In this document: positions 20,001 through 58,180 of the stretch, piece after piece
Layout: the number at the start of each line of letters is the position of its first letter
Numbering within the stretch: position 1 is the first letter of the stretch
DNA from: Trichomonas tenax
Lineage: Eukaryota; Parabasalia; Trichomonadida; Trichomonadidae
Length of the DNA stretch: 64,000 bases
Reading direction: 5' to 3'
Assembly (NCBI GenBank): GCA_023091735.1
Contig: JALKBU010000098.1
Coordinates: 22,160-86,159, forward strand
Notes under the pieces: generated by a model
The model's input: only the letters and a program-made list of their open reading frames with translations
What the model was told of the DNA's origin: nothing
The model's database searches: none
Translations under genes and position numbers: made by a program

Positions 20001-20488
20001 GAAGTCTTATCGAAATCCTTTGGTGACTTGTCTTACAAATTTATAAAGACTATCTTATGTAAAATAATGAATATTAAATAAATCCATATATGTTATCACT
20101 TTATAACGACAATACTCTATCGTGTGTTATTGTTTGTGAAATGAAAGTTTGATGAATATATTATTACCTCAGTCTAATATAAAAATCTATGTACTTGATG
20201 ATTTCTATGCTTAGGTGTCGGTAATTTTTTCGAAATTGATGAAATTGTCTCCGAATTTTATAATTTTGTCGGAAAGTGTTTAGTGAGTTGATTGAGGCCT
20301 GTAATGATACTTCTAATGTACTTAGGAGTATCTGCCCTAAAATATGTTAATATATAACGAATAAGCATCACATCAAAAATAGATTTGTTTTCCAACTCGA
20401 AAATTTGACAAATAATGAATTTGCATGTCAAATAATACAAAATAAACACAAGCTACTAAATTAGAGATGTTTTCAAATTCATTATAAG

Positions 20489-20538
20489 ACATCCCTTCAA
20501 AATTCTCATTATTGAAAGCAGTATCTTTGAAGGGATGT
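20489..20538. repeat. perfect 13-bp inverted repeat upstream of the LRR-PP2C gene
   Basis: ACATCCCTTCAAA at 20489-20501 pairs perfectly with TTTGAAGGGATGT at 20526-20538 across a 24-base loop. It ends about 165 bp before the PP2C start and just before the TTGACATGTAAA array. It could be a protein-binding palindrome or a remnant of a small element. The rest of the 19985-20704 gap holds no gene. Confidence 0.65.
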
Positions 20539-20547
20539 TAGGGAAAA

Positions 20548-20670
20548 ATGTCATGTAAAATTCAACGATAGAAATGTAATATCAAATTTTGTGTTAAAAT
20601 TGTTATGTAAAAGAATTTTGACATGTAAAATTTACGTGTCATAATTTTGTTGGAATTTTGACTTGTAATT
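20548..20670 (+). promoter_or_regulatory. TTGACATGTAAA-type array, about 18-20 bp period
   Basis: Related words start near 20600 (TTGTTATGTAAAA), 20618 (TTGACATGTAAAA), 20638 (TGTCATAATTTT) and 20658 (TTGACTTGTAATT), with an extra ATGTCATGTAAAA at 20548. The spacing is 18-20 bp. The array ends about 35 bp before the ATG at 20705, the position expected of a promoter element. Function is inference. Confidence 0.5.
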
Positions 20671-20704: not shown

Positions 20705-22618
20705 ATGAGTGGAGAAGTTGAGATTACATCGCCTGAATATTTAATTCCAAAGCTTCAGAAAATAGCAACATCTTCTTCAGTTGTTGCTTCACACATTGGA
20801 TTGAACAATATACCCAATTTACTAATGATTTTCCAAAATATAACAAGTCTTGATTTATCATCAAACCCGATCAACTCGATTGACGTACTTTGGGGCAGTG
20901 CATTACTCAATCTTCACAGATTAAACCTGTCTGCGTGCTGGTTAACGCAGTTACCTTACGGACCACCATCATTCTTCAATACTCTGTTAGAATTTTACCT
21001 GGATGGTAATTTCCTGTCAAGGAATCCGCCAAATTTCTCCGTTTTTCCGCATTTGAAGAAACTTTCAATAATTGGAAACGATTTTACAGAAATTCCTGTC
21101 TTACCACGATCTTTGGAAACATTAATTTACAGAATGAACAGCTTCTCATGCATACCAGACTGCGGAATAACAACATTAGATGCATCATATTGCAACACTC
21201 CAAATAACATTAAAATATTAGCAAGACAACTGGGATACTTAGATATATCACATGGAACGCTAACTGGTGATATAGTTTTGCAGTCTGTTCCACTTCTTTC
21301 ACAAATTAATCTTTCTCATAACTCAATCACTTCAATAAACTTTGAAAGTTCACGTAGATTGACAGAAGTTGATCTTTCCTATAACGGACTCGAATCAATT
21401 CCTTCTGTTCTCTATACACTTCCAATGTTGAGAATTTTGAAGCTTCAACATAACGTTATTTCAGAAATAGATACAAAAATATCATCGCTGAGAAGACTAG
21501 AATATCTTGATATATCTCACAATTCAATTTTCACTGGAAAAATCCATCTTCCAGATAGATTGAAAGATTTCTTGGGATCGTTCAATATATTCTTAGCTTT
21601 CTCTTCTTTCCCGCTTTCTCTTGAAACATTTGATGCTTCTTTCTGCAAATGTCTTGTTATACCGTCATCAATCCATAAGATGAAATCATTGTCGCTATTC
21701 TTCGTCAACAAAATTTACTTCTCTCAGTCAATGCTTTCCATCAAGTTTACTTCGAATCAAGATGGTACAGATGGTACAGCAAATGAGAGTGAGAGACTCA
21801 TTCCTATCATAAGTCCACCGGTTCCTGAACAGTCACTTATTAATGATAGCCTTGGCAATGGAATTGGATGCAGTGCTACACTTGGACGATCTACAAAATT
21901 CGAGGATAACTTCATGTACTTGAAACATGGAAATGCACTGTTTGTTGGTGTGTTTGATGGGCATGCGGGACATGAAAGTGCTCTCATTTCAGCCGAATGC
22001 TTTACAAGAATATTGCCAAAGTTTGATTTCGAACAATTTGCATCAACTAAATTTAATCCAAAGACAGTCAAAAACTTCCTTAGAAGATCATTTGCTGAAG
22101 TCAATGATGAGCTCAGGAACAGAAAAGTTAAAGATGGTACAACAGCTGTAGTTGTATGCTTATTAGATAGCCATGGTGCTGTTGCTCATGTCGGTGATAG
22201 TTTAGCTCTTTTAGTTGGAGCCAAGAACTCAAAGCTTTTAACGAAAATGCATCGTCCAACAGACAAAGAAGAGTTCTCAAGCTTAAGAAAGAAGAATATG
22301 TTCGTCAGCTCTGACTGGCGTGTTGATGGAAAACTCTCTGTTTCGAGAAGCTTAGGAGATTTCTGGTGTTGTGGAGGAATGTATGATGATGCCGATGTTT
22401 CCTTCTTCGAGTTGGATGATGATTCTCTCTCCATTGTCCTTGGATGCGATGGATTATGGGATTATGTTGATGAAGGAACAGTTTGCAGCGTTGTTAGAGA
22501 AATAAGGGATCCTGTTAAAGCCTCTAAGCTCCTCCAAGATATTGCATTCGCTTCTGGATCTCATGATTCCATTTCAGTAATTGTCGTCAATGTTGACAAA
22601 AAATCTGTTTGTAATTAA
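20705..22618 (+). CDS. leucine-rich-repeat PP2C-type protein phosphatase
   Basis: 637 residues. Residues about 40-345 are leucine-rich repeats (LDLSSNPI, LRILKLQHNVISEI, LEYLDISHNSI). Residues about 385-637 form a PP2C (PPM) domain. Metal-binding positions are mostly kept: FED near 399-401, DGHAG at 418-422, DGTTAVVV, GDS near 497-499, SVSRSLGDFW, and GCDGLWDYV near 582. The last motif reads HDSISVIVV where most PP2Cs have DNITVIVV, so the final Asp is kept and Asn is Ser. It should be a Mg/Mn-dependent Ser/Thr phosphatase. LRR plus PP2C is the arrangement of PHLPP phosphatases and the neighbouring parts of fungal adenylyl cyclase, but there is no PH or cyclase domain here. The LRRs probably choose the substrate. 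Start chosen at the ATG 35 bp after a TTGAC array. Confidence 0.85.
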   Translation: MSGEVEITSPEYLIPKLQKIATSSSVVASHIGLNNIPNLLMIFQNITSLDLSSNPINSIDVLWGSALLNLHRLNLSACWLTQLPYGPPSFFNTLLEFYLDGNFLSRNPPNFSVFPHLKKLSIIGNDFTEIPVLPRSLETLIYRMNSFSCIPDCGITTLDASYCNTPNNIKILARQLGYLDISHGTLTGDIVLQSVPLLSQINLSHNSITSINFESSRRLTEVDLSYNGLESIPSVLYTLPMLRILKLQHNVISEIDTKISSLRRLEYLDISHNSIFTGKIHLPDRLKDFLGSFNIFLAFSSFPLSLETFDASFCKCLVIPSSIHKMKSLSLFFVNKIYFSQSMLSIKFTSNQDGTDGTANESERLIPIISPPVPEQSLINDSLGNGIGCSATLGRSTKFEDNFMYLKHGNALFVGVFDGHAGHESALISAECFTRILPKFDFEQFASTKFNPKTVKNFLRRSFAEVNDELRNRKVKDGTTAVVVCLLDSHGAVAHVGDSLALLVGAKNSKLLTKMHRPTDKEEFSSLRKKNMFVSSDWRVDGKLSVSRSLGDFWCCGGMYDDADVSFFELDDDSLSIVLGCDGLWDYVDEGTVCSVVREIRDPVKASKLLQDIAFASGSHDSISVIVVNVDKKSVCN

Positions 22619-25547: not shown

Positions 25548-26474
25548 ATGAGTTCAGAGAAAGTACCGACAGGGAGCGAGCCCTTGGCACCAACACGTGT
25601 GAGGATGCGGTCTGCACCAACTCGCTTCTCATGGCGTAACAGTGATGGTGGAAAGTATAGAACACGCAGTGAAAAGAAAAATCGAAGAGACAAGAAGAGA
25701 CGCTATGGCTCCGAGAAGTGGGCTGATGCTCCGGTTACTGACTTCATCAACGGTTCCTGGACCAGAGAAGAAGACGAAGCGATCGTAGACTGGGTAAACA
25801 CACATGGACCTACATCATGGACGAAACTGGCTGAATCACTTCCAGGAAGGATAGGAAAGCAGTGCCGTGAGAGATGGCACAACTCCCTGAACCCTACATT
25901 GATCAAGACAGGCTGGACACTCAAAGAAGACCAAATCATATGCAAATTCCAGTTCAAGCTAGGAAATCGTTGGGCGAGAATAGCTGAGATGCTTCCAGGA
26001 CGTACTGATAACGCTGTTAAGAACAGATGGAACTCTACACTCAAGAAGAGAGCCGCACAAATTCTCGCAAACTTGCCACCAAGTCCAAAGAAGCACTCTG
26101 AATCATCAGAGGAGTCTGACCCAACAGATGAATCATTTGACGATGAGACAAAGACAGCATCTTCACCAACACATGCCCCAGAAGATGAAAAGATCATTGA
26201 AGACGAGAAAAAGAACATTGACGTCCCTTTGCTACCAGAAGACTTGCCGACATTGGTGATCCCAACACCAGCATTCGAAAAAAACTCTGTGGTTTTCACA
26301 ATGCTTTCTCCAATCTCTCCTACAATGAGGACATCCCCGTTCTTATCGACAATTGACAAGGATTCGCCAAAGGCTGATTGGATCGAATCGTGGGAGAATC
26401 AGGAACAGGAAATTACGGATAGTATTGGACAATCTAACATTGGGTTGTTCGACATATGCTGCCCAGAGTTGTAA
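25548..26474 (+). CDS. R2R3 Myb DNA-binding protein
   Basis: 308 residues. A basic N-terminus (residues 1-60) precedes two Myb repeats. Repeat 2 has W71, W91 and W110 with [15 protein letters not shown]. Repeat 3 has W123, W142 and W161 with [18 protein letters not shown]. These are the canonical recognition helices of c-Myb-type R2R3 proteins, which bind AAC-containing sites. The C-terminal half is acidic and Ser/Thr/Pro-rich, consistent with a regulatory region. Trichomonads have many Myb factors, some of which control adhesin and iron-responsive genes; the target of this one cannot be read from sequence. It is followed by tRNA-Gln on the same strand. Confidence 0.92.
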
Positions 26475-32926: not shown

Positions 32927-33388
32927 TCAATTCTTATTGAAATTAGAAAAGTGCTTTTCCGATACTTTTCAATTCAATTTTATCTAAAAACAGAATTTAA
33001 AATAGGTGCAATAAATAAAGTTAAAATTGATCAAAATTTCCATATGCTTTCGTTCCAGTAAAAGTGTAATAAATAGACATTTTCAATTCAAAATTCTTTA
33101 GAATCAAATTTATGAAATTTTCACAACAATAAGATTTCATATCGAATATGGTTTGTAAATAATTTTATTTGACAAATTGGATATTTACGTGACAAAAATA
33201 TTTGTAAATTTGAGCGTGGCAAAAACAGTAACTTTTCCCAAAATCCGTTAATTTTCCACAAAATATGTCCATCATCTATTGTTGAACTCGAAAATGCATT
33301 AAAAATGAAAGGAATATCGTTTTTGCGGTTCTCATAATTGAGCGAGACGATGAAGACGGTTGAAGCGAAAAAAAATTAAAAATATCGC
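32927..33388. promoter_or_regulatory. divergent spacer with a second TTGAC cluster
   Basis: Lies between the importin and CAX genes. TTTGACAAATTGG (33168), ACGTGACAAAAATA (33187) and ATTTGAGCGTGGC (33209) are spaced 20-21 bp. TCATA at 33332-33336, 55 bases before the CAX ATG, fits the initiator consensus. No gene present. Confidence 0.4.
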
Positions 33389-35224
33389 ATGGCTGAAACA
33401 CCCGGCGATAATGTAAAGCTCGATGAGCGTCCTTTAGTCCCGAAGGTTCTAGAAGCCGACGACAGGCCGCTTGTCTTCGGTGTACGTCCAGCTTCCTACA
33501 ACAGAAAGCATTTCGTAACACCAGCGATCAGCTTTGACCATCTAAGCTACGTCAGCTTCCAGAACATCCTCTGGACACTCCTTTGTGGCTGGTGGGTCTC
33601 CCTCTTCATCCTTATCACAGCTTTATTACTTATTATTACAGGTTTCGGTTACAAGATTGGTATCAGACTGTTTGGATTGGCCAAATTCGTTTTCTACCCG
33701 TTCGGAAGATACGCATATCTCGACAATAGCGAAAAACCAAACATGTTAGGAAGAATTTTATTCTATCTTTTCGCATCCATTTTCATTGCCATCCCTCTCA
33801 TGCTGTCAATGACTCTCTCCTGGGAACTCATTTTCTACATCCCAATGGCCAAATTCTTGACACGTGTCATGTCACAGACATTTACAAACATCTGGCGCCT
33901 GAAATTTGCACGTCTGAAGCACCACAATGCTAAGTCCGGACGTCTTCCAGTCATTTTGACATACAGCTCCGGCTCATTCCTTTATTTCAAATTCTCTTTC
34001 TTCGGAATGGACGTTCCATACATCAACCTTTGGCCGTTCATCATCGCTACAGCTTATATTGGCTATGGTGCCTCTGAGCACGTCAAAGAGCACAACGCCG
34101 TTCTTTTCACATTTATCACCATCCTTGCAACAATCCCTTGCATGTATGTCATCGGCGTTTGCACAGAAATCATCTCCGGCCGCTGCGGACTCGTTCTCGG
34201 TTCCCTCATCAACGCTGGTTTCACCGGTTTAGTCGAACTCATTCTTTTCTACTTCTCTATCAAGAAGGGACTCGGACAGGTCGTTCAGTCCGCCGTCACA
34301 GGAGCTTTCCTCATGAACCTTCTCGTCATTCCAGGTCTCTCAATGTTCGCTGCCGGTATCAAGTGGAAGGAAGTCAAACTTAATAGGGCTGTCCAGTCAG
34401 TCTCTGGCACATTCTTGTTCCTCGCTATCATCGCTGTCTTCTTCCCAGCTGTCTTCTTCAACATCTATCATCGTCCAAATCTGGTCTGCAAGGAATGCAA
34501 TGGCCAGCAGGGCGTTTTCAACGTTAGAGCGGATTCTGGCCTCAACTGCACACAATGCAGCATGCAAAATCCATCCGTTCTCGATTTTGATCCAGTTTAC
34601 AAGACAATGGCCAAGCCATTGATGTACACAACATCAGTCTTGATGCCAATCGTGTACGGCGTCGGTCTCTTCTTCTCACTTCACACACACAAGTACATTT
34701 ATGATCAATTCGAAGAGGAACAGCGTGGTGAAGATTCTGTTGAAACAATGTCAACATGGATCTGCGTTGTTGTCCTTCTCGTCTCCTGTGTCATCTTCTC
34801 TATCGTCTGTGAAATCGTTACTGATGTTATGCCACCAGCTATCGACCAAATGCACTTAACAGAGCGCTTCGTCGGTCTCGTCTTCTACACAATGATTCCT
34901 GCTGTTGCTGAATTCATGAATGCTATCAGATTTGCTCTCGAAGGCAACATGGGTCTTTCTCTTGAAATTGGTAACCAAGGAGCTATGGTCGTCTCTTTGA
35001 TCCAGATGCCAGCTCTCGTTCTCATTTCCGCAATCATCGGAAATAAGACAATTGATGGATCTTTCACACTCATGTTTGAAATGATTGATGTCTTCGCTGT
35101 CATTATCTCTGTCCTTCTTAGGAACTTCATGCTTATGGAGAATTCCATCAACTACTTCACTGGTTTCGCATTCTTAGTCATCTTCACGCTTATCGCTGTC
35201 GTTTACTACTTCGACCCGTATTAA
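33389..35224 (+). CDS. CAX-type cation/proton exchanger with N-terminal YccF-like domain
   Basis: 611 residues and about eleven to thirteen membrane segments. Residues about 55-115 resemble the YccF (DUF307) module: two hydrophobic helices with ITGFGYKIGIRLFGLAKF and FYPFGR. The rest is a Ca2+/cation antiporter. The first exchanger repeat has GLVELILFYFSIKKGLGQVVQSAVTG split around E283; the second has AVAEFMNAIRFALEGNMGLSLEIG around residue 507. Each repeat keeps the membrane-embedded Glu, although the usual GNxxE is changed to TGLVE and VAE. A cysteine pattern CKEC...CTQC lies in a central loop near 370-395. YccF plus CAX is the layout of fungal Vnx1-type proteins, which move monovalent cations as well. 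Likely role: proton-driven Ca2+ or Na+/K+ loading of an acidic organelle. Codon use points to good expression. Confidence 0.82.
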   Translation: MAETPGDNVKLDERPLVPKVLEADDRPLVFGVRPASYNRKHFVTPAISFDHLSYVSFQNILWTLLCGWWVSLFILITALLLIITGFGYKIGIRLFGLAKFVFYPFGRYAYLDNSEKPNMLGRILFYLFASIFIAIPLMLSMTLSWELIFYIPMAKFLTRVMSQTFTNIWRLKFARLKHHNAKSGRLPVILTYSSGSFLYFKFSFFGMDVPYINLWPFIIATAYIGYGASEHVKEHNAVLFTFITILATIPCMYVIGVCTEIISGRCGLVLGSLINAGFTGLVELILFYFSIKKGLGQVVQSAVTGAFLMNLLVIPGLSMFAAGIKWKEVKLNRAVQSVSGTFLFLAIIAVFFPAVFFNIYHRPNLVCKECNGQQGVFNVRADSGLNCTQCSMQNPSVLDFDPVYKTMAKPLMYTTSVLMPIVYGVGLFFSLHTHKYIYDQFEEEQRGEDSVETMSTWICVVVLLVSCVIFSIVCEIVTDVMPPAIDQMHLTERFVGLVFYTMIPAVAEFMNAIRFALEGNMGLSLEIGNQGAMVVSLIQMPALVLISAIIGNKTIDGSFTLMFEMIDVFAVIISVLLRNFMLMENSINYFTGFAFLVIFTLIAVVYYFDPY

Positions 35225-35655
35225 GCTCAGGTTTTTATATATTTCTATCTTTTCAATTTTGATCGACTTTCGCAATTTCAAAATTGTGCAAATGTTAATC
35301 ATTTTAAAAATAAACAAATAGTTGATAAAGCAATACAAAAGATCATATTTACATTCCTCAAAAATTATAAAAATATCAAATTGATTTTCATTTCATAAGA
35401 GCAAAGATATAAAGAGCAGAAGTGTTTTTAAGCATATGCACATAATGTTAATTAAAGTAAAGTCAAAAATGAAGGAAATTATATAGCAAAAATTGTCAAA
35501 TTTTCTATTAAAATTAGGAAATTTGCTTGATCAGATATGATTTCCAACATTTTAAATAATAAAATCGATTTAATATTGGGTATAGAATGCAAATAACAAT
35601 AAATCACAAATTCGATATTTTTTTCGAAAATTTTCAAAAAAATATTTTTGTCCCA
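35225..35655. other. intergenic spacer before the exportin gene
   Basis: No separate gene. TCACA at 35604-35608 fits the initiator consensus and lies about 50 bases before the ATG at 35656, which is why the first in-frame ATG at 35587 is not used. Confidence 0.45.
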
Positions 35656-38600
35656 ATGCAAGAAAAAGAATTAATGAATTTTTATGAAGCGAAGGCAGAA
35701 CAGGCATTCGGTTCAGCGTCAACTTATGATACTGAGCTTACTGAGTTTTGCGCAAATCCCGAAAATATCGAGTTTTTCAGAAAAGCATTAGATTTGCCAA
35801 ATAGAAGACCGAAATTTTATCAATGTATGTCATTCGCGTTAAAAGAAACAGTTCCCCGCGAATGCACGAAGTGGGAAAAAAATATAAATCATCAAGTCAT
35901 AAATTGGGTTCTCGAAAAATTCAGATCTGTTGAACTCGACGATTACGTTTCTTCTAACCTTGCGATTATTATCTCAAAAATTATGACAACAGCTTTGGCT
36001 GCTTACGAAGATGTAAATACGATTATTATGCAAGACATTTCATCGCTATTTGATCAATCCCCTATACAAACAGTGCTCGGACTTAAGATTTTCATCAACA
36101 TTTATAACGATATAGATGAGAAAAATTGTATTTGCAGAGATTTCTTTACAACACGCTTCAGTGAAGCTATGTTCAGCATCGCTTTAACGAAAGCTTCACA
36201 GTTCTCACAGTTAAAAGTTATAAATTACGAAATGGCAAAAAATTTGTTAAAAACAGCTCTTGAATGCTGCAGAATCATTTTAAGCACGCCAGCAAAACGC
36301 AATGACAAATCTAAGACATCTGTTAACGATACTTGCCAACTTCCAATAAAAATGAATGAAATCGTTTCTCGACCAGAAACTCTCATTACTCTCTTCGAAA
36401 TATACAAAGAAGTACTTCCAGACGTTAAGGCAATCAATCCTGTTGTATTGGAAGCACATAATTGCATTCAAAAACTTTGCTTAGTTGCAACATCAAACTT
36501 CAAACCTAATTTAACAGAGTTCCTACGTGTTCTCACAACAGAAGTCAATTCTATCATTGGCGATAACTGGGGTGCTGAGATAGAGCCAGTTGATCACATA
36601 TCAAGCATTCTTTTTGCTGCAAGTCCGAAATTCACAATGAGAGATATGCCAAATCTTCTTAACTTCGAAGAATTCATCACAAGGTTTTCTCAGGCAACAG
36701 TCTCAATGCTGGTGAATGGAAATTATCCATTTGATAATGAAATATACTTGAAATTCGAGGGAAGCTTAGGATTTGCTGCGAAACTGTTTTCCACAGCGAA
36801 AGCAGGCACAGGATTTCCACAATTTGTCGAAGCTTTGGCTGGATGTGTTGCCCCAATTTGCCTTCAGTTCCTTGAATGGATAGCAAATGCCGACTTTCGG
36901 AGTCAAATAGACATCACAAACATTAATATTGCAAGCCACGTTCAGGTATTAATCGCTTCAGATCCTGTTCAAATCTCAGGCTTGATTATACGCAACATCA
37001 TGCACTTCACAGAAATGATAAAGAACAGAGCACAAGTTCCACCACAGGAGATACAAAAGGCTGAAATCAAACTTGCTCTTTTCATATCGATCATTGCAAG
37101 ATGCTTAGTCAACTCTCTTCCAGCCCAGAATAACATTTCCGAATCTAATTATCACATTCATCTGTTTTCTACAGCGATGAATGTCATCCATGAATCAGTT
37201 TCATGGCTCCAAGAAGGAGAAAGATATCCTTCTCTCGAGTTTATTATAATATCGTTCATCAGCAGTTTCTGCGATAACCCCAACTTCTCGCGTATGTCAA
37301 AGCTTCAGCAGATTTTCTTCCAGATGCTCACTGCCATCGGTTGCCCAATAAATACAAAAGATGCAGCTTCAGATTTGATGGCCAGTCGTTTGTATGTGAC
37401 ATTCCAATGCTATGGAAACGCTGGAAATCATATCGAAGACAAACTCATCAATGAAGCAATCAGAGCGATGTCAATTCTCTCACGCAGCCAGAGCCAACTT
37501 GAAGTATTCGTTAATAACTCGAATGAAGCAAACTTCCCATTCCAGCAAACAATGAGACGCGCTCGTTATCTGTTTTATCAGAAGCTTGTTTCTATTTTGT
37601 ATGAAGCTGATTTGACAGAAGGTATTGTTGCTTTGTTGAGATCAGTCGAAAGCCGCAAAGAATCTCCAGTCAATGAGGATATTGTTAATGGACTCGCAAT
37701 TGATATCAGAGGTTTGTTTATGGCCGCTAAGAATGACAAATTATGGGGAATCTTGTTTGATTGGTTCTTCAACGCTTATCTCCAATTGTTTGTTGATGTT
37801 ACACCAGATCTGCTCAAGAATCCTCCAATAATATACCAGATTCTTAAAATGTTTTCCATCATTGTCCAACAGAACAGCGGAAACAAGAAGATATCATTCC
37901 CTCCATCATCAGCACGCGGCAACATTTTGTTCGAAAAAGTTGTTCAAATCCTTAACCCTGTTTTGCAATTCGCAACAAACCAATTTGATGATGATAGAAT
38001 TCCTCTCAAACTCGTCTGCTATTGCGCAAGAGTCTTCTTAAGGATGGTTGAAGGTGGATATGTTTGCATTGATGCTTTCAAAGTTTATGGATTGTCAACA
38101 TTTACAGATACTCTCGGATCCTTCTTTAATCTCATTAGCTCCGAAAGATTTATGCCAATCCTCTTCTCATATACCCAATACATCAAAGACATTGCACAGC
38201 TTTTCCATGAGATTTGTTCCAAGCAGCTGAATACAATAACAGCTGCTCCAGGAATTATTGTTCTAATTGTTGATTTCTGCATCAATATATTGACAAGTGA
38301 AAATATATCCGACTGCAGAGATACTTGCTATTACATTCTTAAGGATATCGCACGCTATATAGTTGATGAGACATACATGGATAAAGAAGTTAACGAGGAT
38401 ATCAAGATCATCTGCCTCAAGGCAACTCGCGTTCTCTGGAATATGATTTTTGGAGGTCCAGGAACAATGAAACCAGATTCAATTCTTCTGATTGCTGATC
38501 CACTTAAGCTCTTCCTCATCTTATATAGTGATACGATCGAAGAGGCGCTTGAAGCAATCAACAACTCATTATCGGATGACAGAAAAGTTGCTTTCGAACT

Positions 38601-38739
38601 CAAGAGAGCTGAGTTCACAACAAATATTATGGATGAACTTGATGATGAAAGAGTCAGTTTGTCACCACGTCTTCAGAAGCTTACCAAATTTATACAGAGT
38701 GTTGGAGTGAAGGTTATCATTCCTTTCCAAACAGAATAA
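35656..38739 (+). CDS. exportin-7/RanBP16-like karyopherin
   Basis: 1027 residues, matching exportin-7 (about 1087) and exportin-4. The sequence is all-helical with no other domain. Resemblance to exportin-7 is spread along the N-terminal third: LTEFCANPENIEFFRKAL, then NPVVLEAHNCIQKLCLVATS and FLRVLTTEVNSIIG where exportin-7 has the SCLVQIASVRRSLF and HLVDGVKRIL segments. It probably binds RanGTP and moves folded proteins across the nuclear envelope. The family placement comes from remembered family features and is moderately sure; a generic importin-beta relative is the alternative. With the minus-strand karyopherin at 29.9-32.8 kb it flanks the CAX gene. The frame opens 23 codons earlier at an ATG that precedes the probable initiator. 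Confidence 0.65.
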   Translation: MQEKELMNFYEAKAEQAFGSASTYDTELTEFCANPENIEFFRKALDLPNRRPKFYQCMSFALKETVPRECTKWEKNINHQVINWVLEKFRSVELDDYVSSNLAIIISKIMTTALAAYEDVNTIIMQDISSLFDQSPIQTVLGLKIFINIYNDIDEKNCICRDFFTTRFSEAMFSIALTKASQFSQLKVINYEMAKNLLKTALECCRIILSTPAKRNDKSKTSVNDTCQLPIKMNEIVSRPETLITLFEIYKEVLPDVKAINPVVLEAHNCIQKLCLVATSNFKPNLTEFLRVLTTEVNSIIGDNWGAEIEPVDHISSILFAASPKFTMRDMPNLLNFEEFITRFSQATVSMLVNGNYPFDNEIYLKFEGSLGFAAKLFSTAKAGTGFPQFVEALAGCVAPICLQFLEWIANADFRSQIDITNINIASHVQVLIASDPVQISGLIIRNIMHFTEMIKNRAQVPPQEIQKAEIKLALFISIIARCLVNSLPAQNNISESNYHIHLFSTAMNVIHESVSWLQEGERYPSLEFIIISFISSFCDNPNFSRMSKLQQIFFQMLTAIGCPINTKDAASDLMASRLYVTFQCYGNAGNHIEDKLINEAIRAMSILSRSQSQLEVFVNNSNEANFPFQQTMRRARYLFYQKLVSILYEADLTEGIVALLRSVESRKESPVNEDIVNGLAIDIRGLFMAAKNDKLWGILFDWFFNAYLQLFVDVTPDLLKNPPIIYQILKMFSIIVQQNSGNKKISFPPSSARGNILFEKVVQILNPVLQFATNQFDDDRIPLKLVCYCARVFLRMVEGGYVCIDAFKVYGLSTFTDTLGSFFNLISSERFMPILFSYTQYIKDIAQLFHEICSKQLNTITAAPGIIVLIVDFCINILTSENISDCRDTCYYILKDIARYIVDETYMDKEVNEDIKIICLKATRVLWNMIFGGPGTMKPDSILLIADPLKLFLILYSDTIEEALEAINNSLSDDRKVAFELKRAEFTTNIMDELDDERVSLSPRLQKLTKFIQSVGVKVIIPFQTE

Positions 38740-38785: not shown

Positions 38786-38861
38786 TTTTTACTTGTCAGA
38801 TATCCAATTTACACATCAAATAATATTTACATATCATTTTTTAGTTTATATGTCAAAATCA
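38786..38861. promoter_or_regulatory. four-unit TTTACATGTCAA array, 18-20 bp period
   Basis: Words start at about 38788 (TTTACTTGTCAGA), 38808 (TTTACACATCAAA), 38826 (TTTACATATCATT) and 38845 (TTTATATGTCAAAA). The steps are 20, 18 and 19 bp. This is the reverse orientation of the TTGACATGTAAA word. The array ends nine bases before the chromo-shadow gene's ATG and merges with its initiator. Confidence 0.6.
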
Positions 38862-44395: not shown

Positions 44396-44905
44396 ATAAA
44401 TTTAATTTTTATCAAGTAAACATTTTTGAACAGTGTAACCCCCTACTTTCCAAATCACAGAAAAAATCATTGTTGCACATCGATTTATATGTCTGTAATT
44501 ATATCTTGGCAAGATGCTTGCATATATGCAAGCACAACTTCAATATTTCCGAGGAACAATTGTCATGTATTTTTTTTTCAAAATCGATTTACTCTGTCAT
44601 TTGTTAAGATTTTCTGGGTGCAGTCGTTCATAATAAACATCCATATATAGGAGATTTTTTGTTTTGGGGAGTATCTCCCAAGGATTCTCAGATTTGGAAA
44701 TCTTATGAAAATGGCAATTTTTTGACACATAAACATGTTTAGGTAAAATAACACCAACGGTTTTTTGCCAATGTGGTTGACTTTTTGACATATCAATACA
44801 ATTTTTGTCATATAAACTTTGTTTTGACATAGTGACAGTCCCTGTTTTTCGAAAATTCAATGATTTTAGTGTTTCGAACGAGTGAAAAAAAAACGTTTTT
44901 TTTTG
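44396..44905. promoter_or_regulatory. divergent spacer with a TTGACA array, 19-20 bp period
   Basis: Words begin near 44721 (TTTGACACATAAA), 44765 (TTGCCAATG), 44785 (TTGACATATCAA), 44805 (TTGTCATATAAA) and 44824 (TTGACATAGTGAC). The last four steps are 20, 20 and 19 bp. The array ends about 70 bp before the ATG at 44906. One more copy (TTTTGACATATAAATT) lies at 44388-44403, directly at the start of the VPS13-like pseudogene. Short frames across this region are repeat by-products. Confidence 0.55.
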
Positions 44906-46579
44906 ATGTTTCCGCATGTTAAAAAATATTCATCATTAACGACATCATACAAAGTGATAAGCACAATTTTGTGCGTCCTGGTCGTAGTGTTCCAGGATTT
45001 CAAGTATAGAAGCAAAAAATCCGTAGCGTTTAATTTTGAAGCTCAAAATGATTTGATAATCCAACAGAGCAAGTGCTTAACGCAGATAGATGAAGATACT
45101 GTGATACCAAAAAACAGAGTTTGCTATGACAGATTTCAGCATTCAGAATATCTTCCTTGTTTTTTCAACATAGAGCCACACAATGAGACAAAATACGTAT
45201 TCATTGCTGGAACCTCAAATCCTATTGCAAGGATCTTTGTGGAAATGCTGAATGATAAAAGAATAAAATATCGAGATGTCACTTCCCATCTTCAATATGA
45301 CTTGCGACAGCCTCATCACGAATATTTCCTCAAAATTATTCATGTTACCCATATATTTGACTTCACTAGGCCTCATAATTATTCTCTTTTTCGAAATCTT
45401 ACGCGTGATGCTGGTGTTCCTGTATTCCACCTCGTATCAAAACCAATGGGCGATGCAAGAGTTTTCGAAATTATCATTCCACAGGTCATTGGGCCATATT
45501 ACATGCACAGAAATCCACCTGCGCTTTATAAGCATCTGATTAACATATTTGAAAACAAGACAGAGAAAATTAAGTTGAATGAAGCCGAAATGTTTGGTTC
45601 TGCATCTCAAATCGCAGAATATCTGTTTAACAATGTTTATATGGCCAAAAAACTAGAATTGAAACAATACAATCAAAGATTCACAACGCATACAGCCAAA
45701 TCAATCATTGATTTGGCACTTGGAAATACAGGTGAACCAAACGATTTTATTAAACGCGATTTATCATATATCAAAGCACTGAGAATGCAACCTGACATTC
45801 CATATGCATCTCTTGCAATTGTGGTCACAGACCATAAAAATATCACAGGAAGATTGCAGAAAATCTTGAATCTTTACGAAAAAGTTTTACCAAAATATCC
45901 TGAATTATCTTTGGAGATTATCTATATTTATGTTAAAACTACAGCAGGAGCACGTGATTTAGAGGAACTCGTTACCATTGGTCCGCATATGAGGAAGATA
46001 GTGAGGATTTATACAGTGCCATACATCGAATATACAAAAATATTACCATTCATTAATACAACAATGGTTCCTGATTATTTCTTTAGAAACTTCGGCTTTA
46101 GAATTTCACGAGGAGAATTTCTCTTCACAGGAAGTGGTGATTATCTTCCTTCTCCTTATTTCTTTGATGCGGCAACAAAAAAATTGTTCTTGACACATCG
46201 GATCCTTCTTTCTACACGCGTTGAAATTAATAATACGTCGGAAGAAGAATTCATTGTTAGTCAATATGACAAATTCTTGCCAGTTCAATCATTGGAGATT
46301 CTTGGTGCGGATTGGTCAGATGCATGGAGTTTCTCATCATGGATGCTCAAGAATTGGGGAGATCTTCAAGGATCTCATCGCACTCTTGTCGAGAAACTAA
46401 GAGGTTATATTAATGATAAATATTCATTACATGTTGACAGCATTTTCGCTATTGATCAAACATCATTTAAATATGTACCTCAAATATATGTTCTCCCAAG
46501 TGGTTATCATGTTCGTCACGAAATGGTTTCTCAGCTGACAAATGTTTTCCCACTTTATGAAACACCAAAATATCTTTAA
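44906..46579 (+). CDS. type II membrane protein with Rossmann-like and glycosyltransferase-A-like regions
   Basis: 557 residues from the ATG at 44906. A single hydrophobic segment (VISTILCVLVVVF, about 16-32) after a short basic tail is the Golgi type II layout. Residues about 95-240 start with KYVFIAGTSNPIARIFVEML, a degenerate GxSxxI nucleotide-binding turn of the SDR/epimerase kind, and include VIGPYYM. Residues about 280-480 start with YASLAIVVTDHK and include FGFRISRGEFLFTGSGDYLPSP (near 395-415), the shape of a GT-A glycosyltransferase donor site but with SGDY in place of a clear DxD. It may modify surface glycans; the reaction is unknown and the GT reading is tentative. The longer frame begins with GTG and is not used. 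Confidence 0.5.
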   Translation: MFPHVKKYSSLTTSYKVISTILCVLVVVFQDFKYRSKKSVAFNFEAQNDLIIQQSKCLTQIDEDTVIPKNRVCYDRFQHSEYLPCFFNIEPHNETKYVFIAGTSNPIARIFVEMLNDKRIKYRDVTSHLQYDLRQPHHEYFLKIIHVTHIFDFTRPHNYSLFRNLTRDAGVPVFHLVSKPMGDARVFEIIIPQVIGPYYMHRNPPALYKHLINIFENKTEKIKLNEAEMFGSASQIAEYLFNNVYMAKKLELKQYNQRFTTHTAKSIIDLALGNTGEPNDFIKRDLSYIKALRMQPDIPYASLAIVVTDHKNITGRLQKILNLYEKVLPKYPELSLEIIYIYVKTTAGARDLEELVTIGPHMRKIVRIYTVPYIEYTKILPFINTTMVPDYFFRNFGFRISRGEFLFTGSGDYLPSPYFFDAATKKLFLTHRILLSTRVEINNTSEEEFIVSQYDKFLPVQSLEILGADWSDAWSFSSWMLKNWGDLQGSHRTLVEKLRGYINDKYSLHVDSIFAIDQTSFKYVPQIYVLPSGYHVRHEMVSQLTNVFPLYETPKYL

Positions 46580-46800: not shown

Positions 46801-48309
46801 CTAAGTATAAGGACGCATTTTTTGAAGATTTGGATTGAACATTACGTTATATGAAGGCTTAGTCATCTCTGTTCTAATCTTCTTATACTTTCCTGGTCCA
46901 GGTGTTTCCTCTCCTTCTTTATCTACATGAGCGTTTCTGCTGATAACGCCGCCTTTAGTCTTATCTGTTCTTGCTGTGTTGTATAATGCTGGTGAAGGAT
47001 CATCGCTGATTTTAACACCGATGTATGTGCTATCTGTGAATCTGTTTGCTTTTCCAATTGTATTCTTTGCTTGAGATTTAGGTCTTGTGTTGTAAGCAGG
47101 ACCAGGACTGACAGCAGTTGAAATGATATCACTGCGCTGACTCTTATCTTTAAATGCTGGTGATCCGTGACGAAGAGTTTCCTTGCGACGGATTGTGTCT
47201 GGAATCGTATAATCATACTGATTAGGAGCTGGTGTATCATTAATTTTGAACAACTCAGGTCTCTTTGATGAGGAAGAAACAGATCTTCCAGTTGCAGACG
47301 CAGCACGACGTGAGGCAGACGTTGAAATTGAGTCAGAGTTTGCAACATTATAGAAACCAGGGCCTGGAGTGTCGCTTCTGTTATCTGGACGATTTGCTCC
47401 AAAGCCATTCTTCTGGCTCGTTTTGACTTTCATTCCTGTTGATGTTTCATATTGTCCAACGCCTGGTGTGTTAGGATTGAAAAATGCAATCTCACGCTTA
47501 GCTCCAGAACCAAATGCACGCTTATCCTGATGCACATCACACCAAGGAGTGTGCGCAACCATTGTTTCGTTATGATTGCCTTCTCCTGACCACAGAGAGT
47601 CCTTTGTCGTCGGGAAGAATGCCGGGGACTTTCCTTTTTTAACGGTAATTTCAACCTGTGTTTCATATGAAGCGGGGCCTGGAATTCCGTTGTATATCAC
47701 AGGTTCGCGCTGCGGTGCTCTGCTTCTGCTGAAATCAGCACAGCGACTTCCAGGATTCGCCTTTGGTGTGAGTGAAGTTTTGTAATTTCTTGGACGAATG
47801 AAAAGATCAGTTTCTTGCTTTTCGATTTTCCTACCGAAATTTGACTCTGAAATGTCAGCGTCTCTGTTTATTGTGTTGTTGCCGAGACCGGTGGGTATGC
47901 CATGCCTTGATTCGTCGGCGGCACTTCTTGCTCGAGAAGGATGAAGCCATTTTGATGGTTCTGAAGGTTTTTCTTTAATCCATTGACTAAGGTTCGAGTA
48001 ATCAGCAGGCGAAGGTGTTTTTTCAGTGTCAACGAAATATTCGCGTTTAGCTGATAATGAAAAATCGGCTTTTGGTGCCGATCCTTTCAATAAGAATTGT
48101 GGTTCGTAACATCCGGGGCCTATATCGTAGTTATCTGGTAGATTGAACAATTCACGACGTGTTGTTGAGCCAAATGGAATTTCTTGCGAAATTGCGCTGC
48201 GTAAACGTGTCTGTTTTGCAGTTGGATCGTAAGTTCCTGGTCCAACGTTGTTCGGTGTTTGAGTATTATGTAAAGCGACCACACGCTTCGATGTTGATGT
48301 GATCGACAT
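46801..48309 (-). CDS. STPGR/SHIPPO-repeat protein (ODF3/CIMAP-like)
   Basis: 502 residues made of about ten proline-glycine repeats: VGPGTYDP, IGPGCYEP, IPGPASYET, PGVGQYET, TPGPGFYN, PAPNQYDY, SPGPAYNT, DPSPALYNT and TPGPGKYKK. These are the STPGR (Pfam SHIPPO) repeats of sperm outer-dense-fibre protein ODF3 and related microtubule-associated proteins, several of which line axonemal doublets. Regions between repeats are basic and Ser/Thr-rich. The likely place is the flagellar axoneme or another stable microtubule array such as the axostyle or pelta. The ATG at 48309 is the first in frame. The gene diverges from the SAS-6-like gene across a 333-bp spacer filled by a 19-bp array. Confidence 0.85.
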   Translation of the reverse strand: MSITSTSKRVVALHNTQTPNNVGPGTYDPTAKQTRLRSAISQEIPFGSTTRRELFNLPDNYDIGPGCYEPQFLLKGSAPKADFSLSAKREYFVDTEKTPSPADYSNLSQWIKEKPSEPSKWLHPSRARSAADESRHGIPTGLGNNTINRDADISESNFGRKIEKQETDLFIRPRNYKTSLTPKANPGSRCADFSRSRAPQREPVIYNGIPGPASYETQVEITVKKGKSPAFFPTTKDSLWSGEGNHNETMVAHTPWCDVHQDKRAFGSGAKREIAFFNPNTPGVGQYETSTGMKVKTSQKNGFGANRPDNRSDTPGPGFYNVANSDSISTSASRRAASATGRSVSSSSKRPELFKINDTPAPNQYDYTIPDTIRRKETLRHGSPAFKDKSQRSDIISTAVSPGPAYNTRPKSQAKNTIGKANRFTDSTYIGVKISDDPSPALYNTARTDKTKGGVISRNAHVDKEGEETPGPGKYKKIRTEMTKPSYNVMFNPNLQKMRPYT

Positions 48310-48642
48310 TTATAAAATTTTGTATGTTAAAATCCAAATTGACAAATTCGAAATATTGACACGTAAATCTATTTTTGACAAGTAAAATATTTTTTGAAAT
48401 GTAAATTTATTTTTGACATGCAAAATCATCAAGTTGCCAAATCTGAGATCTTTGCTATTTTTCAACGCCATGTCTAATATAGAACAATGTAAACTTGTAT
48501 ATAACACTGCTATTGCATGAGCCATCCCAATCAGATTTGTTGAATGATTATCAAAATTCGCTTCTGACAACAGGTAATTTACATGCCAAAATTATTTCGT
48601 AAACTATTGAATTATTAAGACGTTTGAAATTTTGTCGACAAA
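48310..48642. promoter_or_regulatory. bidirectional spacer with exact 19-bp TTGACATGTAAA array
   Basis: TTGA words start at 48339, 48356, 48375, 48394 and 48413, with steps of 17, 19, 19 and 19 bp. The four full units read TTGACACGTAAATCTATTT, TTGACAAGTAAAATATTTT, TTGAAATGTAAATTTATTT and TTGACATGCAAAATCATCA. A related word, ATTTACATGCCAAAATTA, sits at about 48578, 60 bp before the SAS-6-like ATG. The array could serve both divergent genes. An 86-codon minus-strand frame through it is rejected. Confidence 0.6.
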
Positions 48643-49281
48643 ATGAGTAAGTTTAGTGAAACAGATTCATTTCTTGAAGAACAAGTTCGTGATTACGATC
48701 CAAGTGTTGCAAATGGTTATGAAATTAAATTCAATAAGGAAATCATCTATAAATGCTCAGGAAGAGATAAAATTTATCGTACAAGAATTTTAACATCAGT
48801 TGGAGAAGATTCAGTGCTCAACGAAGTTAGATTTGAGCTATTTGATGACGAAAACATAGATTTTCTTTACGAATGCAGTCTTACACAAGAAGAATACGAA
48901 GAATTCAAATCTACAAACCAGTTAACGATTCCATTTGATAATTTTGCAAATTCAGTTCAAATTCTCTTAGAAAACAGCGTTAAAAAGGCTGATGAATTTG
49001 AATGCAGATTCGCAGAAAATGCTGAAGATGAAACAGCGAGTATTAAGTTCTACCAGAAGCTCAGACTGAGAAAAGTAGACATCTTTGGTCTCGATTTTCA
49101 TCGGAGCGTCAAAGAATTTATTGAAGCACAAGCCCAGTCACGTTTTAATCGTCTTAAGAACGAATTATCACATAAGCGCCGCGAGTATAACGAAATGATT
49201 AAGAAGATACAGTCAAAGAATCCAACAATCGCAAAGCGTTTGAGCGATTCTGTCAAAGATGCTTTTCCTAAATCTAAGTAA
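48643..49281 (+). CDS. SAS-6-like centriole/basal-body protein, head domain with short coiled coil
   Basis: 212 residues. Residues about 30-160 follow the SAS-6 head fold (SAS-6/XRCC4 superfamily): VRFELFDDENIDFLYECSLTQEEYEEFKSTNQL parallels the SAS-6 line with TDDxDPFFLY and SEEDFxxLKxxQ, and IKFYQKLRLRKVDIFGLDFHRSVKEFI parallels the closing strand and helix before the stalk. Residues about 160-200 (NRLKNELSHKRREYNEMIKKI) give only about 40 residues of coiled coil, against several hundred in true SAS-6. SAS-6 head dimers build the ninefold cartwheel. A head with almost no stalk is the form called SAS6L in apicomplexans and kinetoplastids. It could alternatively be an XRCC4/XLF-type head. It is divergent from an STPGR-repeat gene. 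Confidence 0.62.
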   Translation: MSKFSETDSFLEEQVRDYDPSVANGYEIKFNKEIIYKCSGRDKIYRTRILTSVGEDSVLNEVRFELFDDENIDFLYECSLTQEEYEEFKSTNQLTIPFDNFANSVQILLENSVKKADEFECRFAENAEDETASIKFYQKLRLRKVDIFGLDFHRSVKEFIEAQAQSRFNRLKNELSHKRREYNEMIKKIQSKNPTIAKRLSDSVKDAFPKSK

Positions 49282-58080: not shown

Positions 58081-58180
58081 CCCGAAAAACCTGTCGAGAA
58101 CCGGACAAACCTGTCGAGCGATGGACAAACCTATCGAGAACCGGACAAACCTGTCGAGAACCAGAAAAAGTTGTCGAGAT
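58081..58180 (+). repeat. 20-bp tandem repeat, five units (left iterons)
   Basis: Five units of exactly 20 bp, consensus CCGGACAAACCTGTCGAGAA, begin at 58081, 58101, 58121, 58141 and 58161. The middle units are nearly identical; the last drifts to AAAAAGTTGTCGAGAT. Diverged inverted copies occur at 59041-59100. Confidence 0.9.

Follow-up and report, generated by a model that had tools for sequence, protein, structure and literature searches.

A polar array of a 12-bp word at a 19-bp step between divergent genes of Trichomonas tenax, predicted to be a promoter-proximal element

The array between the STPGR and SAS-6-like genes

The window, a 64-kb stretch of Trichomonas tenax DNA with a GC content of 35.5%, contains a 333-bp spacer (48310–48642) between two genes. 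One, on the minus strand (46801–48309), encodes SHIPPO (sperm-tail PG-rich, STPGR) repeats (E = 5.5e-10), and the other, on the plus strand (48643–49281), encodes a SAS-6_N domain (E = 2.3e-21); the genes are divergent, as an earlier reading of this DNA from its letters alone (the sequence-only reading) had described. Relatives of the STPGR protein in Tritrichomonas foetus, T. musculus, T. vaginalis and Histomonas share 30–33% identity with it, and its closest relatives share 87 and 78%.

Direct reading of the spacer places four plus-strand units of TTGNCANGTAAA at 48356, 48375, 48394 and 48413, with a step of exactly 19 bp. Units 1 (TTGACACGTAAA, 48356–48367) and 2 (TTGACAAGTAAA, 48375–48386) match exactly, while units 3 (TTGAAATGTAAA, 48394–48405) and 4 (TTGACATGCAAA, 48413–48424) are each one letter off. 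Tandem Repeats Finder reports 48356–48424 with period 19, 3.6 copies and a score of 80. The row is flanked on the same strand by two degenerate left half-units, each with 8 of 12 matches by manual count: TTGACAAATTCG (48339–48350), at a step of 17 to the first full unit, and TTGCCAAATCTG (48434–48445), at a step of 21 from unit 4. A single minus-strand unit, TTGGCATGTAAA (48578–48589), lies about 54 bp ahead of the SAS-6-like ATG. The plus-strand TTGA words listed in the sequence-only reading do start where it placed them, at steps of 17, 19, 19 and 19, so that its exact 19-bp spacing holds for the four good units only. That reading lacked the degenerate word at 48434 and the minus-strand unit, and it described an array filling the spacer, which proved wrong: the array is confined to the STPGR-proximal part.

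When 48310–48642 was shuffled 5,000 times with dinucleotides preserved, counting as a unit any word with at least 11 matches, the longest run was 0 units in 4,663 shuffles, 1 in 337 and 2 or more in none, against the 4 observed. The array is therefore confirmed as real and beyond chance in AT-rich DNA. The whole spacer is single copy, and the genome otherwise holds four short matches to it (84–89%), all within the array part. The STPGR gene, whose ATG is 46 bp from unit 1, is the likeliest target of the array, and the SAS-6-like gene may share it.

Other rows are found in the window. A second array of two plus-strand units at step 18 (20600–20629) lies 75 bp ahead of an LRR-PP2C gene (20705–22618), with additional units on both strands around it (20405–20669), and a third, of two minus-strand units at step 20 (33164–33195), lies 193 bp ahead of a Na/Ca-exchanger-domain gene (33389–35224). 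A weaker minus-strand array of four degenerate units (38788–38856, steps 18–20) is not at a gene start and follows the stop of an ORF (35587–38739) by 48 bp; degenerate plus-strand units at 44722, 44785 and 44805 (44722–44816) stand upstream of an ORF at 44906–46579. The window also carries a 20-bp tandem repeat (58087–58179; 4.7 copies, score 123) with a sequence unlike that of the 19-bp array, and encodes a two-repeat Myb protein (25548–26474), with c-Myb and B-Myb as its best solved relatives, as well as ribosomal protein S6e, for which the best solved chain is 5xyi (444 bits; next 230), presumably that of Trichomonas vaginalis.

Core, step and polarity across the genome

We scanned the genome of this single species (53.4 Mb in 1,528 contigs) for same-strand pairs of the unit. 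The strict pair TTGACANGTAAA-N4-10-TTGACANGTAAA occurs in 20 places and the relaxed pair of TTGNCANGTAAA, with a gap of 1–31, in 399, against 0 in each case for the pattern read backwards. A sample unselected for arrays was formed from 20 stretches of 10 kb picked by contig number, which together with the window cover 264 kb; 7 of the 20 stretches are on contigs with known arrays, though away from those array places. In the 200 kb outside the window, exact TTGACANGTAAA was found 11 times, whereas five shuffles gave 0–1; allowing one mismatch raised this to 44 against 9–13. Shuffles and reversed-pattern controls thus rule out chance in AT-rich DNA and show that the arrays recur non-randomly across the whole genome and are no peculiarity of this spacer.

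The consensus core has 12 bp. The search patterns left its positions 4 and 7 open, and there G makes up only 9 and 3 of 196 letters, respectively, in 98 distinct listed pairs, so that the unit can be written as TTG-H-CA-H-GTAAA, where H is not G. T-rich DNA precedes the unit in the array loci, where the core positions were fixed by selection. At position 8, 97 pairs have G and 4 have A or T, although A and T are commoner in the genome; by eye, one repeat accounts for about 35 of the 97, and some 60 remain without it. From these base counts, G at position 8 is predicted to be required. The longer pattern TTGACATGTAAA-N5-10-TTGNCANGTAAA, which fits at least 8 of the strict-pair places of this genome, matched once in a prokaryote collection of 257 Gb, inside an ORF read as an ABC transporter, and had no match in a viral collection, and a prokaryote or viral origin of the word was rejected on these results.

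Spacing was measured on 100 listed pairs of the 399 relaxed ones, which have AT-rich spacers between their units. None is less than 17 bp apart, though the pattern permitted 13; 47 are 17–21 bp apart, 29 of them at 19–20, and 11 form a second peak at 39 bp. Five of the 14 listed pairs at step 20 are, by eye, one dispersed repeat, without which 24 of 95 pairs fall at 19–20 bp. In the 26 distinct pairs that are 36–42 bp apart, the middle position, which the search had not selected, carries a weaker unit, scoring at least 10 of 12 in 15 of them, compared with 3.0% of shuffles. Over the array loci, where the rule admitted steps of 15–23, the mean step is 19.25 bp (sd 1.3, n = 72). With 10.5 bp to the helical turn, such a step spans about 1.83 turns and rotates each site relative to the one before; the sites would therefore not share one face of the DNA, contrary to the suggestion of the sequence-only reading. 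Phasing by helical face was rejected on this mean and on the missing peak near 31 bp; packing by protein size fits better, given that no listed pair is closer than 17 bp and that there is no pile-up near 31 bp.

In the unselected sample, same-strand neighbours (score of at least 9) of 26 exact wider-form units numbered 14 over the 12 offsets at 17–22 bp and 41 over the 106 offsets elsewhere, which is about three times the density, while opposite-strand neighbours were not denser at 17–22 bp (5 versus 48 elsewhere). Convergent opposite-strand pairs occur in 40 places genome-wide, ten of them by eye near-copies of one sequence. Divergent pairs occur in 160 places; the 50 listed consist largely of copies of two repeated sequences, and this count was left out of the evidence. 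Given that opposite-strand pairs are rarer genome-wide, the row is polar even though its core is almost palindromic.

Position relative to genes and repeats

Placement was assessed at 37 array loci outside the window: 13 distinct loci from the strict searches, 14 picked with a preference for several units from the listed relaxed pairs and the pairs with G at position 8, and ten more of the latter pairs outside the repeat family. The strict search contributed 8 of its 20 places and its companion all 10, two of which are in the window, and the ten-locus set omitted one place that qualified but lay on a contig chosen before. Under a fixed array rule, 34 of the 37 loci qualify (L054, L057 and L067 do not). 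Many of these loci are short and some were picked because they hold several units, and ORFs serve to place the gene starts. It is within these bounds that an ORF start (at least 80 aa) lies no more than 150 bp away in 26 of 34 loci, versus 16.7% of the 5,193 non-ORF segments drawn at random (binomial test, p = 2.6e-14). The median distance from array to ORF start in the 26 is 33 bp. With longer ORFs the result is 26/34 at a minimum of 100 aa (control 13.6%) and 24/34 at 150 aa (control 10.9%), whereas an ORF stop is found within 150 bp in 3/34 (control 14.5%). Eight loci have no ORF start at this distance (L001, L003, L015, L016, L049, L053, L060 and L065). In the second locus set, of ten loci, the fixed rule gave 7/9, with L067 lacking a qualifying array and L060 and L065 missing. 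According to PMC7370421, T. vaginalis mRNAs have short 5' UTRs; if this is true here, the median distance of 33 bp to the ATG would put the arrays at the core promoter.

Single units follow a similar profile. In the 1–100 bp ahead of an ORF their density is 1.7 per kb (16 observed, 1.6 expected); further upstream it is 0.43–0.63, on the 3' side 0.36–0.94 and at more than 1 kb from any ORF 0.52. Inside ORFs it is 0.11, near chance (16 seen, 10.3 expected). Units are thus in excess throughout intergenic DNA, and most so beside starts. Among the 77 ORFs sampled (minimum 150 aa), 11 have a unit with at least 11 matches within 150 bp upstream, compared with a mean of 1.3 and a maximum of 5 in shuffles. 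Enrichment within 150 bp of starts was the test that the sequence-only reading had set for itself, and both the 26 of 34 loci and the near-chance level inside ORFs bear it out.

We consider it probable, from the sequence pattern and its placement, that the array is a cis-regulatory element close to the promoter and consists of a homotypic row of predicted sites for one polar DNA-binding protein. Two marks of a homotypic array were found, namely a core repeated with free spacers and enrichment at ORF starts, which stand in for gene starts. Several observations count against a promoter role. Every intergenic class, regions downstream of genes included, holds more units than expected by chance; units also occur in dispersed repeats; one array of the window follows a stop by 48 bp; eight of the 34 loci have no ORF start within 150 bp; and the unselected sample, window included, holds only 4 arrays under a similar rule. 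Of these, the ones in the window lie 75, 193 and 46 bp from an ORF start and that of L023 lies 302 bp away, so that 2 of the 4 are within 150 bp.

An element of chromatin or replication at promoters (a nucleosome-free region, a boundary or an origin), comparable to yeast Rap1 arrays or plasmid iterons, would fit the AT-rich spacers, the mixed functions of the neighbouring genes, the units in many intergenic places and a placement independent of orientation, with 15 arrays in the same direction as the gene and 11 in the opposite one in the 26 loci. The bias to starts over stops (26 versus 3 of 34) suits transcription better, and we regard this explanation as unlikely.

Just as doubtful is a spread of the units by mobile elements, in which the arrays would derive from dispersed repeats that carry the word, either as their regulatory ends or as remnants, with host genes later retaining some of them. 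In its favour, an 801-bp query from one dispersed repeat, which carries a unit pair at step 20, has 57 matched stretches (some of them pieces of one copy), about 35 of the 97 pairs with G at position 8 are by eye copies of this same repeat, and other repeats hold units. The repeat with the unit pair, present at L039–L044 and further places, exceeds 800 bp, with 73–95% identity in the longer matches. Another dispersed repeat with an internal unit, the TGCCTCCATGAGATTT... family, occurs in L020, L030, L034 and L036, and one more unit-bearing repeat in L033 and L036. The window array, however, is not embedded in a multi-copy element; its spacer is single copy, so that single-copy arrays of this kind are not accounted for by mobile elements. 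Moreover, similarity among the 37 loci and the array region of the window is confined to the arrays, except for 56 bp shared by L006 and L060, and spacers differ as much within arrays as between them. Repeats could nevertheless be the source of some promoter units, or the elements may have taken up a host word.

The genes that arrays front are of mixed kinds. In 18 loci outside the window we scanned 20 array-fronted ORFs, of which 13 have no Pfam name and seven do: two Ras-family GTPases, VPS11, ankyrin repeats, an MSC domain, SAC3/GANP and a RING finger. In the window, the genes are the STPGR and SAS-6-like pair, the LRR-PP2C gene and that of the Na/Ca-exchanger-domain protein. A site specific to a cilium and centriole programme, like the animal RFX X-box, is suggested by the STPGR and SAS-6_N genes flanking the window array and by the core, which we take to resemble an X-box half. 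None of the seven named ORFs elsewhere, a small sample, is cilia-specific, and the RFX domain profile (PF02257) has 0 matches in this genome, but the control genomes gave none either. A dedicated ciliary-gene element was dropped on account of the mixed named genes, and we hold it to be very improbable.

Spacer identity is 0.51 within and 0.47 between arrays (p = 0.08; 19 arrays with at least three units), and core identity, partly fixed by selection, is 0.83 within and between alike: the core and step are kept and the intervening sequence is not. A decaying, functionless minisatellite, its 19-bp unit tandem-duplicated by slippage, would give head-to-tail units at a nearly constant step, but we reject it as almost certainly wrong, and a young one likewise, because the cores are conserved but the spacers, and thus the whole unit, are not significantly more alike within arrays, the steps differ by whole bases about a value of 19–20, and the same core, with its G at position 8, recurs in unrelated places.

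Predicted mechanism and comparison with known elements

Under the promoter-proximal reading, each unit would hold one asymmetric protein with a footprint of about 17–20 bp, adjacent proteins would be packed against each other, perhaps binding cooperatively, and the row would open or mark the promoter, allowing transcription of one or both flanking genes. The first candidate proteins would come from the expanded initiator-binding-domain (IBD) and Myb families. The IBD profile (PF10416) has 110 genome matches over the family cut-off, a few of which contain stops, a large expansion of a transcription-initiation domain; Myb domains number at least 150 (150 of 809 candidates were scored). An IBD relative would be the first to test, given that the central H-CA-H of the unit recalls the Inr, a lead and not a result.

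If the main reading is true, a strictly spaced, orientation-locked array, present at perhaps one promoter in ten, would be a new trichomonad cis-element and would point to a candidate DNA-binding protein, possibly self-assembling. The 12-bp core, the 19–20-bp step and the predicted need for G would offer a handle for catching this protein, and the array would also allow one to ask whether the protein's sites spread with mobile elements. More speculatively, and with low confidence, the lineage might run a sizeable share of its promoters on a novel core-promoter code. A polar protein, perhaps an IBD relative that moved from HCAHW to TTGHCAHGTAAA, would sit head to tail with a footprint of 19–20 bp ahead of the start site, the number of units would set promoter strength, and mobile elements would seed new promoters.

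PMC9203502, PMC7370421 and PMC4223856 treat trichomonad transcription in terms of the Inr, the M motifs and the Myb sites of T. vaginalis. The strings quoted there are Inr, M3 and Myb (PMC9203502), M5 and Inr (HCAHW) (PMC7370421) and M2 (AAAGTGAC), which is called non-functional (PMC4223856); other motifs are named in a 2024 T. vaginalis chromatin preprint (PMC11702783). Compared by eye, the unit differs from all the Inr, M2, M3, M5 and Myb strings quoted in the first three sources, in line with the sequence-only reading, which had not recognised it among the trichomonad promoter elements that it considered (Inr and Myb-recognition sites); none of the quoted Myb, M2, M3 and M5 strings equals TTGHCAHGTAAA. 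Word and phrase searches found no publication describing the array, which does not establish its absence from print.

The M2, M3, M5 and Myb sites resemble the array units in being short motifs just upstream of genes; a fixed-step, head-to-tail row is a feature of the array and is described for none of them in the passages compared. Closer in kind is the T. vaginalis Inr (HCAHW, bound by IBP39), which also lies near the start codon and shares the H-CA-H of the unit centre, and the IBD family is present in the genome. The unit differs in having G in place of A/T after H-CA-H (97 versus 4 pairs), and on this ground an array of canonical Inr was rejected. It further differs in its 12-bp length, its rows of two or more and its occurrence in both orientations. 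Upstream of the 77 sampled ORFs, neither the Inr (63 in the last 50 bp versus 63.7 in shuffles) nor M5 (2 versus 3.3) is in excess, so that both are unusable for placing start sites. Of the 77 ORFs, 10 have the M2-like word AAAGTG[AGT]C, which matches AAAGTGAC, on either strand no more than 50 bp from the ATG, compared with 0.2 in shuffles (examples are in L027, L028 and L032). M2-like words are present in only 2 of the 34 listed array promoters (last 80 bp) and together with the unit in 1 of the 77 ORFs.

Outside trichomonads, yeast Rap1 and other general regulatory factors occupy directional rows of sites at the promoters of functionally varied genes, the protein being polar with a footprint close to 19 bp. 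The array is similar in its directional rows at mixed-gene promoters and differs in its core, the likeness being one of layout. Plasmid iterons are direct repeats at a step of about two helical turns that are bound by a polar protein; unlike them, the arrays belong to a nuclear genome, occupy hundreds of places biased to gene starts and have spacers that are not conserved.
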